Positions 8,937 to 34,998 of a stretch of 34,998 bases of DNA are shown here, in pieces. The stretch comes from Gammaproteobacteria bacterium. Lineage in GTDB: Bacteria; Pseudomonadota; Gammaproteobacteria; Eutrophobiales; Eutrophobiaceae. Under the pieces are notes generated by a model. That model saw only the letters and a program-made list of their open reading frames with translations, did not search any database and was not told the origin of the DNA. The position numbers and the translations under genes are program-made. The stretch spans positions 1-34,998 of the forward strand of contig JAJFKK010000039.1 of NCBI GenBank assembly GCA_021773245.1. Direction: 5' to 3'. How positions within the stretch are numbered: the stretch's first letter is position 1; each line of letters begins with the position of its first letter.

Positions 8937-11750
8937 GTGTCAGAATTTGTAGTTGGTCAACGCTGGGTCAGTCATACAGAAACCGAGCTAGGGTTAGGTA
9001 TCATTGTAGGTGTAGAAGGACGTCGTGTAGAAATTAGTTTCCCAGCTGCAGATGAACAACGGATGTATGCTACAGATAGTGCACCATTGACGCGTATAGA
9101 GCATAAATTAGGCGAAACGATAAAAAATCAGGACGATCAATCTTTTACAATAAACCGCTCAGATAAGTTTGAAGGACGGATAATTTATTATGGTACTGAT
9201 CATGATGGTCAGGAACATAAAATAGATGAATTAGATCTAAATTGTTTTATCGAGCTCACAACTCCCAAGCAACGTTTGACAAGTGGGCAACTTGATAGTC
9301 TTAAAGCCTTTCGCTTACGCTGCGAAACACTAAAGCAACTACATCGATTACAGCAGTCTCCGGTAAAAGGCTTGCTGGGTTCCAGGACTAATTTATTACC
9401 TCATCAGGTCTACATTGCCCATGAAGTAGCAAAACGGTACGCACCTCGTGTTTTACTTGCTGACGAAGTTGGCTTGGGAAAAACCATCGAAGCAGGAATG
9501 ATACTTCATTATCAACTACATACTGGCTTAGCCAGTCGTATACTGATTGTTGTTCCAAATACGTTAAGTCATCAATGGTTGGTAGAAATGCTTCGTCGTT
9601 TCAACCTACGTTTCTCATTATTTAATGAAGATAGATTGCATGCGCTTAGTGAAGAAGAAGGTAACCCCTTTGAAAGTGAGCAATTAATTATTTGCAGCCT
9701 TGATATTTTGACTAGCGATCCAAGCTTATTTGAGCAAGCTTTAGATGCAGATTGGGATATGGTTGTTATTGATGAAGCACATCATCTGCACTGGACAGAA
9801 GGCGATGAAGGACATGATTATCGTTGCATCGAATCTCTTGCAAAACAATGTCGCGGTTTATTACTACTAACAGCAACACCTGAGCAAGTTGGGGCTGAAA
9901 GCCATTTTGCGCGACTGCGATTACTTGATCCGGATCGTTTTCATGATCTGACGAGTTTTCTGGATGAAGAAAAAGGCTATCAACAACTTAGTGACACTGT
10001 AAAAATACTGCTGGATAAACCTGATGAATCATTGAAAGATGAGATGTTAACTTTATTAAAAAGCTATTTAGAAGATGAAGCGCCTAATAAAGATAATCCT
10101 GATATTTCTGAACGCGAAGAAATCGTTTCAAAGCTACTTGATCGTCATGGTACTGGACGAGTATTCCTACGTAATACTCGCGAAGCTATTAAGGGTTTTC
10201 CTGAAAGAAAATTAATCAGCACTCCTCTTGAGCGCCCTAAACTATATGCTTCGCTAACAGGAAAACAAACTTTATTTCCAGAAATGGAAGTTGATAGCGA
10301 TGAATGGCTAAAGCAAGATCCGCGAGTGAGTCATCTGATAGATTTAGTAAAAGAATTAAAAACTGAAAAGATATTAGTTATTTGTGCTAATTCGAAAACA
10401 GCTTCCAGTTTAGAAAAATACTTGCAGTTGAAGATGGGAATTAGAAGTGCTGCATTTTATGAAGGTCTTAGTATTATTGAACGCGATCGCGCAGCAGCTT
10501 ACTTTTCAGATACTGAAATGGGCGCACAAGTCTTGGTTTGTTCAGAGATTGGCAGTGAAGGTCGTAATTTTCAGTTCGCTCACCATCTTGTTTTATTTGA
10601 TTTGCCGTTAAACCCGGATTTATTAGAACAGCGGATTGGTAGACTTGACCGTATTGGTCAAACAGAAACTATCAATATTCATGTTCCCTATCTTGAGCAT
10701 ACTGCACAGGAAATTAATTTTGTGTGGTACAACAATGGCCTAAATATTTTTCTACAAAGCTGCTCTGCTGCATATACTATTTATGAAAAATTCGAAGATT
10801 CTTTAAATGAAGCACTTACTAATACAGAAATAGATATTAGTACACTTATTAATGAAACAGAAAAACATACAAATACCGTTAAGAAAAATATGCATGATGG
10901 TCGAGATCGACTTGTAGAATTAAATTCATGTCGCAAAGACGTTGCCGTAGAAATAATAAATTCCATCAACGATGAAGAAGAACCTCAGTTACTGATGGAT
11001 TACATGGAAGGCATGTTTAATACCTATGGCGTCGACCATGAAGAGCACTCAGAAAACGCATGGATACTTCGTGCTAGCGATCATATGCGAACAGGTTATT
11101 TTCCTGGCGTGAGTGAAGAACCTATTACTATTACGTTTGATAGAAACAAAGCGCTTAGCAGAGAGGATATGGCTTTTGTGAGCTGGGAACACCCCATGGT
11201 ATCAGAAGCAATCGAGATGGTATTAAAAAGTGAAATTGGTAATACCTTTATAAGCACTATAGAAAAAGATGGCATTGAACCGGGGACTATATTGCTCGAA
11301 ACATTCTCTATAATTAACATAATAGCACCGAAAAAACTTCAAATTGATCGCTACTTACCTATTACACCTTTACGTACTTTAATTAGTAAGGATCGTAAGG
11401 ATTATTCGAAATTACTGTCTCACGAAAAATTAAATACCTTGAGTATGAAAATAGAACGTCAAACAGCTCATACCATCATTAAACAGATCAAACCTGAGCT
11501 AGAAACTATGGTTGACTTTGCCATTAAATTTAGTCAATCAAAACTACCAAAAATCAAAGAAGATGCGCAACAAAATGTTAATAACTTACTGCACTCAGAA
11601 ATAGTCCGCATGAAACAGTTACAAAAAAACAATGCCACTATTAGGAAAGAAGAAATAGAATTTTTAGAAGAGCAACTTCATGCCTGCAATGAAGTTATTT
11701 CAAATTGTAAATACGAACTTCAGGCTGTAAGACTAGTTATAGCTCAATAA
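8937..11750 (+). CDS. rapA: RNA polymerase-associated Swi2/Snf2 ATPase RapA
   Basis: RapA is a Swi2/Snf2-family ATPase that binds RNA polymerase and promotes its recycling after transcription. The start is GTG 8937 with an AGG about 9 bases upstream. Residues 1-105 form the N-terminal Tudor-like domains (FVVGQRWVSHTETELGLGII). The ATPase core has Walker A DEVGLGKTIEAG (Lys182), DEAH at 279-282 in VVIDEAHHLHW, motif III LLLTATPEQ, and the C-terminal helicase lobe with SEIGSEGRNFQFAHHLVLFDLP and QRIGRLDRIGQ. The C-terminal RapA-specific region is complete. Length 937 compares with 968 in E. coli. It runs into the opposite-strand regulator gene with only 9 bases between stops. Confidence 0.97.
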   Translation: MSEFVVGQRWVSHTETELGLGIIVGVEGRRVEISFPAADEQRMYATDSAPLTRIEHKLGETIKNQDDQSFTINRSDKFEGRIIYYGTDHDGQEHKIDELDLNCFIELTTPKQRLTSGQLDSLKAFRLRCETLKQLHRLQQSPVKGLLGSRTNLLPHQVYIAHEVAKRYAPRVLLADEVGLGKTIEAGMILHYQLHTGLASRILIVVPNTLSHQWLVEMLRRFNLRFSLFNEDRLHALSEEEGNPFESEQLIICSLDILTSDPSLFEQALDADWDMVVIDEAHHLHWTEGDEGHDYRCIESLAKQCRGLLLLTATPEQVGAESHFARLRLLDPDRFHDLTSFLDEEKGYQQLSDTVKILLDKPDESLKDEMLTLLKSYLEDEAPNKDNPDISEREEIVSKLLDRHGTGRVFLRNTREAIKGFPERKLISTPLERPKLYASLTGKQTLFPEMEVDSDEWLKQDPRVSHLIDLVKELKTEKILVICANSKTASSLEKYLQLKMGIRSAAFYEGLSIIERDRAAAYFSDTEMGAQVLVCSEIGSEGRNFQFAHHLVLFDLPLNPDLLEQRIGRLDRIGQTETINIHVPYLEHTAQEINFVWYNNGLNIFLQSCSAAYTIYEKFEDSLNEALTNTEIDISTLINETEKHTNTVKKNMHDGRDRLVELNSCRKDVAVEIINSINDEEEPQLLMDYMEGMFNTYGVDHEEHSENAWILRASDHMRTGYFPGVSEEPITITFDRNKALSREDMAFVSWEHPMVSEAIEMVLKSEIGNTFISTIEKDGIEPGTILLETFSIINIIAPKKLQIDRYLPITPLRTLISKDRKDYSKLLSHEKLNTLSMKIERQTAHTIIKQIKPELETMVDFAIKFSQSKLPKIKEDAQQNVNNLLHSEIVRMKQLQKNNATIRKEEIEFLEEQLHACNEVISNCKYELQAVRLVIAQ

Positions 11751-32391: not shown

Positions 32392-32718
32392 TTAGAGTGT
32401 TTTCAATGTGCCTTTTGGCAAAACTGCAGAAACAGCATTTTTTTGAATTCTAACTTCAGTGTCTTTGGTTATTTCAACAAGGAGGAAATTATCACCTACT
32501 TCTTTTATTTTTCCGAGTAAACCGCCTGAAGTTACAATTTCATCACCCTTGCTCAATTCACCCATTAACTTCTTATGCTGCTTCGCCTGCTTTAACTGAG
32601 GACGTATCAACAAGAAGTAAAAAACGGCAAATAATACAATTAATGGTAAAAAACTGGCCAAGCCAGGTTCCTGCGCCGCCGGCGCCGCCCAAGCATTACT
32701 AATGAAAAAATCTAACAT
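32392..32718 (-). CDS. yajC: Sec translocon accessory subunit YajC
   Basis: YajC is a small inner-membrane protein that associates with SecDF and SecYEG. The 108-residue product has a short periplasmic N-terminus with alanine-rich NAWAAPAAQEPG, one membrane helix (about 22-41, FLPLIVLFAVFYFLLIRPQ), and the cytoplasmic family motif KQHKKLMGELSKGDEIVTSGGLLGKI. Normally tgt lies directly upstream; here two genes intervene. Confidence 0.97.
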   Translation of the reverse strand: MLDFFISNAWAAPAAQEPGLASFLPLIVLFAVFYFLLIRPQLKQAKQHKKLMGELSKGDEIVTSGGLLGKIKEVGDNFLLVEITKDTEVRIQKNAVSAVLPKGTLKTL

Positions 32719-32805
32719 TTATAAGCACTCTGATTTTGAAAACGCGGCATTATGCCATAAATCTGGCCTAATTCAGTAAATACCACATTAATTTGTTATT
32801 GGGGT

Positions 32806-32834
32806 GATTTATGGGGACTTCAAGGGGCTGTCAA
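32806..32834 (-). promoter_or_regulatory. Weak candidate promoter for yajC-secDF
   Basis: On the minus strand a perfect -35 hexamer TTGACA (32829-32834) lies just after the partner gene's stop. At 17 bases it is followed by TAAATC, a poor -10. A separate extended region with CATAAT lies nearer yajC (about 32751-32756). The 119-base gap is a sensible place for a promoter separating secDF from the inserted gene pair. Confidence 0.3.
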
Positions 32835-32837
32835 AGA

Positions 32838-33755
32838 CTAGGAGAGTTCTAACATTTCGTTTTCTAGTAATTGCTGAAATGTCGCTTTTATGCTCTGTAG
32901 CATTTCATCCTGAGCACCGATTTGTTTAAGCTGCTCTAATATATAGTCAACGCTGACCGTACCATTTACATGTTGAAATAATGAGGCAAAGCCCTCACTA
33001 AGTTCGGCTGTTTTTTGATCAATCGTCGGTTCACATTGCGACATACGGCTGACATGAGCGCGAGCAACGAACAATCGCGGTTCGTCTTTTTCTAATATTT
33101 TCTTTCGTCTTGATGCGGCAAACGGCTTTTTGTTTAGGCTGCGCCATAGATCACATTCTGCATCAGGACAAAATGATTGTTTTAATTTTTCATAGGATTC
33201 AGGAATCATTGCCGCACAGACATAGGGGGCCAGTTTGATGTTCTTACTAGACCAGCTTTGATCGAGTTGTGTTGATTTATTATGCAGTTGGCCATTATCC
33301 AATACTTCACGTTTTAAGGTCGCACTGGTCCAGGCCATACCGAGTTCCGCTTCCAATAAGGCAGAGACTTTTGTTTGCTCATCCGCAGAACTAAATGAAA
33401 GTGTATTTAAACTCTCGCCGATGCGTCGACCAAATAATGTCGCGCGTTCTATGGTCGCTGTTCGCATCGTTAGTACATCAACCAAACTCTTTAATACATC
33501 GAGTCCACCATCAACTGAGGAGAGGATACTAAAGCTAACGGGAAAGGAACGACAAAAATGTGACAACAAGAGATCAGCTCGAATTTTTGCATCCAGTTCC
33601 AATGCATCTGGTCGAATGGTATTGAAGTCATTTCGTTCATCTTCATTTAATTCATATTGATGAAGAGCAGTTGTAGCATCTTTACAAAAATTATCGCGTA
33701 CACTGCTATCAAACAACAAATCGAATAAAGCGCGTTCCTGTTCCTGAAAACTCAT
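32838..33755 (-). CDS. Putative partner protein of the MNIO enzyme
   Basis: I do not recognise this 305-residue protein at family level with certainty. It starts with a helical region (about 5-75: ALFDLLFDSSVRDNFCKDA, YELNEDERNDF) of the kind seen in proteins encoded beside DUF692 enzymes. It ends with a compact stretch (about 255-303: LFQHVNGTVSVDYILEQL, TFQQLLENEMLEL) whose spacing resembles a PqqD-like winged helix, the fold of RiPP recognition elements. Seven or so cysteines are scattered, including a Cys-x4-Cys pair at 196/201. No signal peptide is visible. It lies 24 bases after the MNIO gene in the same frame, so the two proteins probably act together (inference). Confidence 0.65.
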   Translation of the reverse strand: MSFQEQERALFDLLFDSSVRDNFCKDATTALHQYELNEDERNDFNTIRPDALELDAKIRADLLLSHFCRSFPVSFSILSSVDGGLDVLKSLVDVLTMRTATIERATLFGRRIGESLNTLSFSSADEQTKVSALLEAELGMAWTSATLKREVLDNGQLHNKSTQLDQSWSSKNIKLAPYVCAAMIPESYEKLKQSFCPDAECDLWRSLNKKPFAASRRKKILEKDEPRLFVARAHVSRMSQCEPTIDQKTAELSEGFASLFQHVNGTVSVDYILEQLKQIGAQDEMLQSIKATFQQLLENEMLELS

Positions 33756-33779
33756 GCCAGAAAGCTCATACCAGGATAC

Positions 33780-34673
33780 TCATATATCACCATCCAAAGT
33801 CGCGACTAGCGCTTCACAATTACTTTTTTCTCGGACAACTTTTCGTATTCTTTTTAATGTAGCAAGCACGCTACTCTCGTTTACCCCTTCACATTCATAA
33901 CAAACAGCTTTGACATTCGGCAACCTTGGTAACATGTCTTCAAACATCTGCCATGTTTGCTCAACAATGTCACACTCATGTGCATCAACATAAATCGGCC
34001 CTGTATCGCCTTCTTTCAAACGACCGCCAGCAATATGAACTTCAATAACACGCTCGACCGGCAGTTCATCTATCGCCTCTAAAACACTATGGCCACTAGC
34101 CATTTCGTAAGAAACTAAATGCCCCATATCAAGTAAGATGGCACAGTCGGTTTGATTTGAAAGACAACCAAAGAATGAGAACAACGGCATTGAACCGATA
34201 ATGAATGCCACGGGTGGTGGTTCAATAGCAACTGGCACGGCAACCTTGGCTTGTACTTCTTTAACGCGTTCAACCGCAAGTTCGAGAGAACGTTGATTAA
34301 AGATAAGTGGAATGAAATAACCAAGTTGAGTCGAATAGCCTGGGCCTTCTTCCCAAAAACAATAGGCTACATCTTGTGCGAACCATGATGAACCAACTGA
34401 CTTAATATGCTTGGAGGTTGCTGCTAACCATGCATTAGAGTTTGGATAAGAACCACAAAAATTAATATAGGACGGATGGAATAATACGGACGCACCCGCG
34501 GCACGAATCTTTTCTACTTCATCAATCACTTCATCAACATCGACTAAACCCGAATATTCAACAAAGCTTGGGCCGCCTTTGGCGTGAACTAAGGACACCG
34601 GATCAGGCTGAGAAGATAAACTCAGGCTGGCACCGACACCTAATGTGGGAAGTTCTTCGAAATGATTACTCAT
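33780..34673 (-). CDS. DUF692/MNIO-family multinuclear iron enzyme
   Basis: The 297-residue protein has the TIM-barrel of the DUF692 family, now called multinuclear non-heme iron-dependent oxidative enzymes (relatives: MbnB of methanobactin, TglH, ChrH). Candidate metal-binding residues are His66 (FHPSY), Asp101 (AQDVAY), Glu151 (AIEPPP), Asp182 and His185 (LLDMGHLV), His213 (VEVHIAGG), Asp230, His232 and Asp235 (VDAHECD) and Glu260 (CYECEG). The order D-x-x-H, then EVHIAGG, then D-x-H-x-x-D follows the family, although the usual HLAGH is HIAGG here. These enzymes usually modify cysteines of small peptides together with a partner protein. A partner gene follows at once, but no precursor peptide gene is visible. 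It lies just after tgt. Confidence 0.82.
   Translation of the reverse strand: MSNHFEELPTLGVGASLSLSSQPDPVSLVHAKGGPSFVEYSGLVDVDEVIDEVEKIRAAGASVLFHPSYINFCGSYPNSNAWLAATSKHIKSVGSSWFAQDVAYCFWEEGPGYSTQLGYFIPLIFNQRSLELAVERVKEVQAKVAVPVAIEPPPVAFIIGSMPLFSFFGCLSNQTDCAILLDMGHLVSYEMASGHSVLEAIDELPVERVIEVHIAGGRLKEGDTGPIYVDAHECDIVEQTWQMFEDMLPRLPNVKAVCYECEGVNESSVLATLKRIRKVVREKSNCEALVATLDGDI

Positions 34674-34716: not shown

Positions 34717-34998
<282 letters not shown>

Follow-up and report, generated by a model that had tools for sequence, protein, structure and literature searches.

The window, by which we mean the whole stretch of 34,998 nucleotides that was analysed, carries on its minus strand the gene order tgt (3' end, stop at 34717), a 297-codon MNIO gene, a 305-codon partner gene, yajC, secD and secF. 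The MNIO gene (33780..34673, minus strand) encodes a 297-residue DUF692 (PF05114) enzyme of a divergent branch, here termed Asp/His for two substituted metal ligands, and the partner gene (32838..33755, minus strand) encodes a 305-residue TglI-like protein in which a helical N-terminal domain (residues 1-158; 33282..33755) and an RRE-like C-terminal domain (residues 164-305; 32841..33266) are predicted. The downstream neighbour of the partner gene is yajC (32392..32718, minus strand). The tgt and enzyme genes are separated by 43 bases, the enzyme and partner genes by 24 (33756..33779), and the partner gene and yajC by 119 (32719..32837). An earlier note on this DNA had placed a DUF692 protein and a partner of exactly these lengths, with exactly these gaps, within the tgt-yajC block; both open reading frames were found again, and the first of them matches PF05114.

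That note had also stated that the gaps contain no precursor gene, and the alignment of eight same-genus loci agrees, as no reading frame is conserved across the 119-base gap in these genomes. An extended -10-like element (TG-x-CATAAT) ahead of yajC is kept there in all eight loci, which suggests that yajC-secDF has a separate promoter downstream of the MNIO pair. No Rfam match was obtained anywhere in the window. Between species of the same genus, dN/dS is about 0.05-0.08 for the enzyme and partner genes alike, so that purifying selection on both is strong, as it is on yajC; these low values and the presence of orthologues in many genera establish both genes as real.

The enzyme scores 89.9 bits against PF05114, the family of MbnB, TglH and ChrH, for which the cut-off is 25. 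Its structural model (pLDDT 88, pTM 0.90) has TglH as its best fold match (Z 27.8 over 268 residues), followed by MbnB (about 25) and the HvfB-like structure 3bww (23.9), with other barrels such as IolI reaching at most 18. Judged by this model, the barrel is of the MNIO type and nearer to TglH and MbnB than to generic sugar-isomerase barrels. Searches against the MNIO subfamily models, which the earlier note had proposed, left the enzyme far below every named-subfamily equivalog cut-off of NCBIfam (78 bits against 310 for BufB, 75 against 400 for ApyH, 56 against 360 for HvfB, 39 against 600 for ChrH and 31 against 325 for MbnB), in keeping with that note's view of the system as a candidate for an undescribed one. 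ApyH proper had no match in 398 genomes, although the control genomes gave no match either.

The partner has no Pfam match, and the DUF2063 signature of type 1 MNIO partners (PME type 1) is absent both from it and from its 27 orthologues. Its model is nevertheless confident (pLDDT 92), and the fold matches are led by TglI (Z 12.9 over 256 residues, the full length) and NGO1945 (12.0), followed by RRE domains (PbtF 6.7), Os1348 (5.7, residues 1-63) and PqqD (5.4). These values are moderate for a partly helical protein, but the three highest entries in the list, each an MNIO partner, are well separated from those below. Among the 27 partner orthologues, weak family-model matches were obtained to NH_RiPP_Os17 (22), ApyI (8) and PqqD (2), one orthologue matching the PqqD Pfam model at 3.9e-5. 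The partner also gave weak matches to models such as those for IS21 transposase and LpxG, which were dismissed as chance. On the strength of the model, the protein is of the TglI or PME type 2 kind, with a helical N-domain and an RRE-fold C-domain, encoded next to an MNIO.

The metal site sets the enzyme apart. The iron ligands of TglH are His71, His107, Glu151, Asp184, Asn187, His216, Asp229, His231 and Glu258 (PMC10880893). Their equivalents in the window enzyme are His66, Asp101, Glu151, Asp182, His185, His213, Asp230, His232 and Glu260, the last of which pairs with the TglH glutamate in the TglH alignment and lies one column off in a larger MAFFT alignment. Thus seven of the nine ligands are kept, where a canonical His/Asn MNIO has all nine. 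The two substitutions, Asp101 for His107 (codon 34371..34373, minus strand) and His185 for the third-iron ligand Asn187 (codon 34119..34121, minus strand), are invariant in all 27 orthologues, whereas His and Asn occupy these positions in 39 of 39 other MNIOs from many families, and none of the additional MNIOs checked later has the swap. The conserved 'EN' following the bridging glutamate also reads 'EP' in the window enzyme. The earlier note had called the candidate iron ligands intact, which is right for seven of them and wrong for the positions of His107 and Asn187; by these alignments, the iron site has been remodelled. In MbnB the substrate cysteine binds Fe1 (reported in PMC10880893), and we hypothesize that a carboxylate near an iron of the Fe1 type may suit substrates which bring no thiolate.

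Such a change could also mean that the chemistry itself is different. The His at the Asn187 position restores an Asp-x-x-His at 182-185, which we take to be typical of the AP-endonuclease/sugar-isomerase superfamily at large, and a His at 185 would presumably also fit non-oxidative members of the wider TIM-barrel superfamily. Together with the fold similarity to IolI (Z 18), this is consistent with a TIM-barrel enzyme that no longer performs oxidase chemistry and instead converts a small molecule, in the manner of an isomerase, a hydrolase or a lyase. We regard such a change of function as improbable, as TglH and MbnB fit the model far better than sugar isomerases do, and the strictly co-inherited RRE-like partner points instead to a peptide or protein substrate.

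The two genes occur as a pair. Among the 116 related genomes sampled, the closely related enzymes are 62-93% identical to that of the window over their full length, and wherever the partner gene is present the enzyme gene lies directly adjacent to it; the apparent exceptions are contig ends and one genome (G030) with a decayed enzyme copy. That copy (L072, G030:C25, about 9474-9846) survives only in pieces with in-frame stops, and a congener (G016) retains the intact pair. A wider scan of 84,980 species genomes returned 31 loci of the pair, in Thiotrichaceae-like MAGs, Moraxellaceae (among them Fluviicoccus and the cultured Agitococcus lubricus DSM 5822), Methylococcaceae, Immundisolibacteraceae and others. 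The enzyme gene precedes the partner gene in every one of them, and in contrast to the 24-base gap in the window the two genes overlap in 27 of the 31, usually by 4 bases. No carriage of the family by phages was found in IMG/VR, and none by plasmids among the plasmid matches listed. The pair is thus a strict two-gene cassette, rare and patchily distributed, and its co-occurrence, adjacency and reading-frame overlap are as expected of proteins that form a fixed complex.

A further reading would make the pair a regulatory or degenerate remnant, a pseudo-MNIO that binds without catalysis in the manner of PesX (PMC13060819). Two metal ligands are changed, one genome holds a decayed copy, and PesX demonstrates that MNIO-like inhibitors exist (PMC13060819). 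We nonetheless think it unlikely that the window pair is of this sort: residues able to bind metal occupy all nine ligand positions and are invariant among orthologues of about 60-93% identity, dN/dS is about 0.06, and G041 has no active MNIO for the pair to inhibit.

In the genus of the window, and in G017 from one other genus, the pair is placed between tgt and yajC. Its position in G041 is directly upstream of queA-tgt-yajC-secDF (L066, 9218-13912) and in G021 further upstream, so that the cassette occurs near queuosine genes in more than one arrangement (the window's genus and G041). Elsewhere it adjoins unrelated genes, among them those for 5-oxoprolinase, an amidase, acetoacetyl-CoA synthetase and a copper ATPase. 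As other genera hold the pair beside such differing genes, a functional tie to tgt, yajC or sec was ruled out; the location within the tgt-yajC-secDF block to which the earlier note drew attention is real, but it marks where the cassette was inserted in particular lineages and shows no sign of functional meaning. In one Agitococcus MAG (L096, 7930-10636), a small Cys/His-rich lipoprotein and a copper-type P-ATPase are encoded downstream of the pair, a single case that is probably coincidence.

No substrate gene was seen beside the cassette. An all-against-all comparison of the flanks of 24 loci, using reading frames of at least 22 codons, showed no recurrent small neighbour gene beyond shared synteny among the matches listed, and hence none of the conserved precursor genes that stand beside the enzymes of a RiPP cluster. 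Because the neighbours vary and the 119-base gap is devoid of a conserved reading frame, the lack of a linked substrate belongs to the family as a whole, so that what the earlier note saw in the window alone, an MNIO and partner with no visible substrate, holds across the family.

It is possible that the substrate is simply a small RiPP precursor of the conventional, Cys-containing kind whose gene lies elsewhere, as for a trans-encoded metallophore of the bufferin or methanobactin kind. Cys peptides are the substrates of most MNIO pairs characterised so far, unlinked bufferin precursors are known to occur (PMC12452194), and the genome of the window has two other MNIO loci, each with its own Cys-rich precursor. 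At one of these (L138, G000:C127, 2864-5020), a precursor of the Buf2-like type, in which Cys repeats (HCYGVNKCGGHNDCKS) are duplicated, is followed by its own MNIO and partner; at the other (L139, G000:C17, 236-1476), an oxazolin-type precursor of EGSCGDKK repeats lies upstream of an HvfB-like MNIO, and precursors of the EGSCGDKK type are present in several relatives as well. However, in G014 and in G041, the latter estimated to be 100% complete, the family enzyme is the sole PF05114 protein, and no match to Buf1, Buf2-like or EGKCG-like precursors was found in either genome. The pair therefore persists without the known precursor types of its lineage, which makes bufferins or oxazolins unlikely as its substrate, and this result concerns those known types only. 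The metal site, moreover, is unlike that of all 39 MNIOs compared. We consider a Cys precursor encoded in trans a minority prospect, though a more plausible one than either loss of oxidase chemistry or loss of catalysis. Antoine et al. have remarked that for several small MNIO clusters a precursor is not easily located, and that proteins may be the targets of some MNIOs (PMC12452194).

Outside the family, both ligand substitutions were found in only two proteins, plasmid-encoded, RiPP-type MNIOs of Piscinibacter gummiphilus and Streptomyces europaeiscabiei. These score 99-111 bits against the family profile, whereas His/Asn MNIOs reach at most 73.5 among the matches listed. In the MNIO tree that the earlier note had called for, in which the partial TglH row was left out, the family and the two plasmid Asp/His MNIOs form one group with support of 100/97, although the plasmid branches are long and such joins may be false. 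As far as sequence comparison goes, the family is a new branch of the MNIO superfamily. At the Piscinibacter locus the MNIO has a 225-residue reading frame upstream of it, and a 57-residue peptide with SNK, a carbamoyltransferase-YcaO fusion and TfuA are encoded there as well. The Streptomyces plasmid locus (L137, 512-8970) encodes a YcaO-nitroreductase protein, an MBL-fold protein, a 51-residue peptide, an Asp/His-type MNIO fusion and LuxE- and LuxC-like genes, and looks like an undescribed cluster of its own.

In the std pathway, StdDE hydroxylates homocitrulline with iron, and the Std enzymes act on a carbon side chain (PMC13174530). Going by the one std-like cluster of Piscinibacter, StdE would carry the Asp/His swap, and because the swap-sharing MNIO sits in that cluster, the Asp/His branch would include RiPP side-chain hydroxylases. 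Since a std-like cluster is among the sharers of the metal site, and a carbon side chain is what the Std enzymes hydroxylate (PMC13174530), the Cys chemistry to which the earlier note had pointed is not our favoured guess for the pair. The flanks of the pair contain none of the std-type genes (YcaO-TfuA, NodU-type carbamoyltransferase, SNK precursor), and TfuA was not found in the genome of the window; the full std-type pathway is therefore not available there.

Taken together, it is rather likely in our judgement that the pair is a stand-alone, two-protein, metal-dependent oxidative MNIO system whose peptide or protein substrate is encoded elsewhere, the most economical view being that one side chain of an unlinked peptide or protein is oxidised. 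We infer the use of iron and O2, complex formation, the substrate class and hydroxylation from the comparisons above. The partner would grip a segment of the peptide or protein through its C-terminal RRE-like domain and dock it onto the TIM-barrel enzyme, whose multi-iron site would oxidise a single side chain with O2, in the manner of TglHI and MbnBC; the gene for the substrate would lie elsewhere in the genome. The replacement of His107 by Asp and of Asn187 by His could favour C-H hydroxylation of a residue other than Cys, as in the std pathway, over Cys rearrangement, and the oxidation is thus probably a hydroxylation. More tentatively, and as a proposal that we would not ourselves expect to hold, this could be an MNIO branch that has left RiPP biosynthesis, a mobile two-gene maintenance cassette with an Asp/His-rebuilt multi-iron site which oxidises, and probably hydroxylates, one residue of an ordinary cellular protein.

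In the literature searched, no description was found of the family, of its cassette or of the ligand swap. The MNIO class is expanding quickly and has been defined by a common set of iron ligands and by linked peptide substrates. The family departs from this on both counts, as two of its ligands are invariantly changed and its conserved cassette comes without a precursor. It offers a natural test of the role of each iron and of whether MNIOs act on cellular proteins, and the cultured host, Agitococcus lubricus DSM 5822, makes the question testable.

Among known systems, TglHI of 3-thiaglutamate (pearlin) biosynthesis (PDB 8HCI/8HI7) is the best structural match for both proteins, with the same combination of enzyme and helical-RRE partner and with HxAGG and DxH motifs common to TglH and the window enzyme. 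However, identity in the structural alignments is only 19% for the enzyme and 8-10% for the partner, His107 and Asn187 of TglH are Asp and His in the window enzyme, and no TglA-like scaffold or other tgl gene lies alongside. The bufferin and oxazolin pairs (BufBC, HvfBC) likewise consist of a PF05114 enzyme followed by a helical-RRE partner; they differ in that the window enzyme falls below their equivalog cut-offs, its partner is devoid of DUF2063 and no Cys precursor adjoins. ApyHI (aminopyruvatide), with its PME-type 2 partners (PMC12452194), resembles the pair in that the ApyI model weakly matches 8 of the 27 partners (best 8.7e-6), but the enzyme reaches 75 bits where the ApyH cut-off is 400, and the accompanying apy enzymes are missing from the flanks examined. 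Finally, the StdDE type, as represented by the std-like plasmid cluster of P. gummiphilus, is only about 29% identical to the window enzyme, its partner has no detectable sequence kinship with the window partner (hhalign probability 0.1%), and its precursor, YcaO, TfuA and carbamoyltransferase have no counterparts next to the window pair; what the two have in common are both ligand substitutions and a place on the same branch of the tree.
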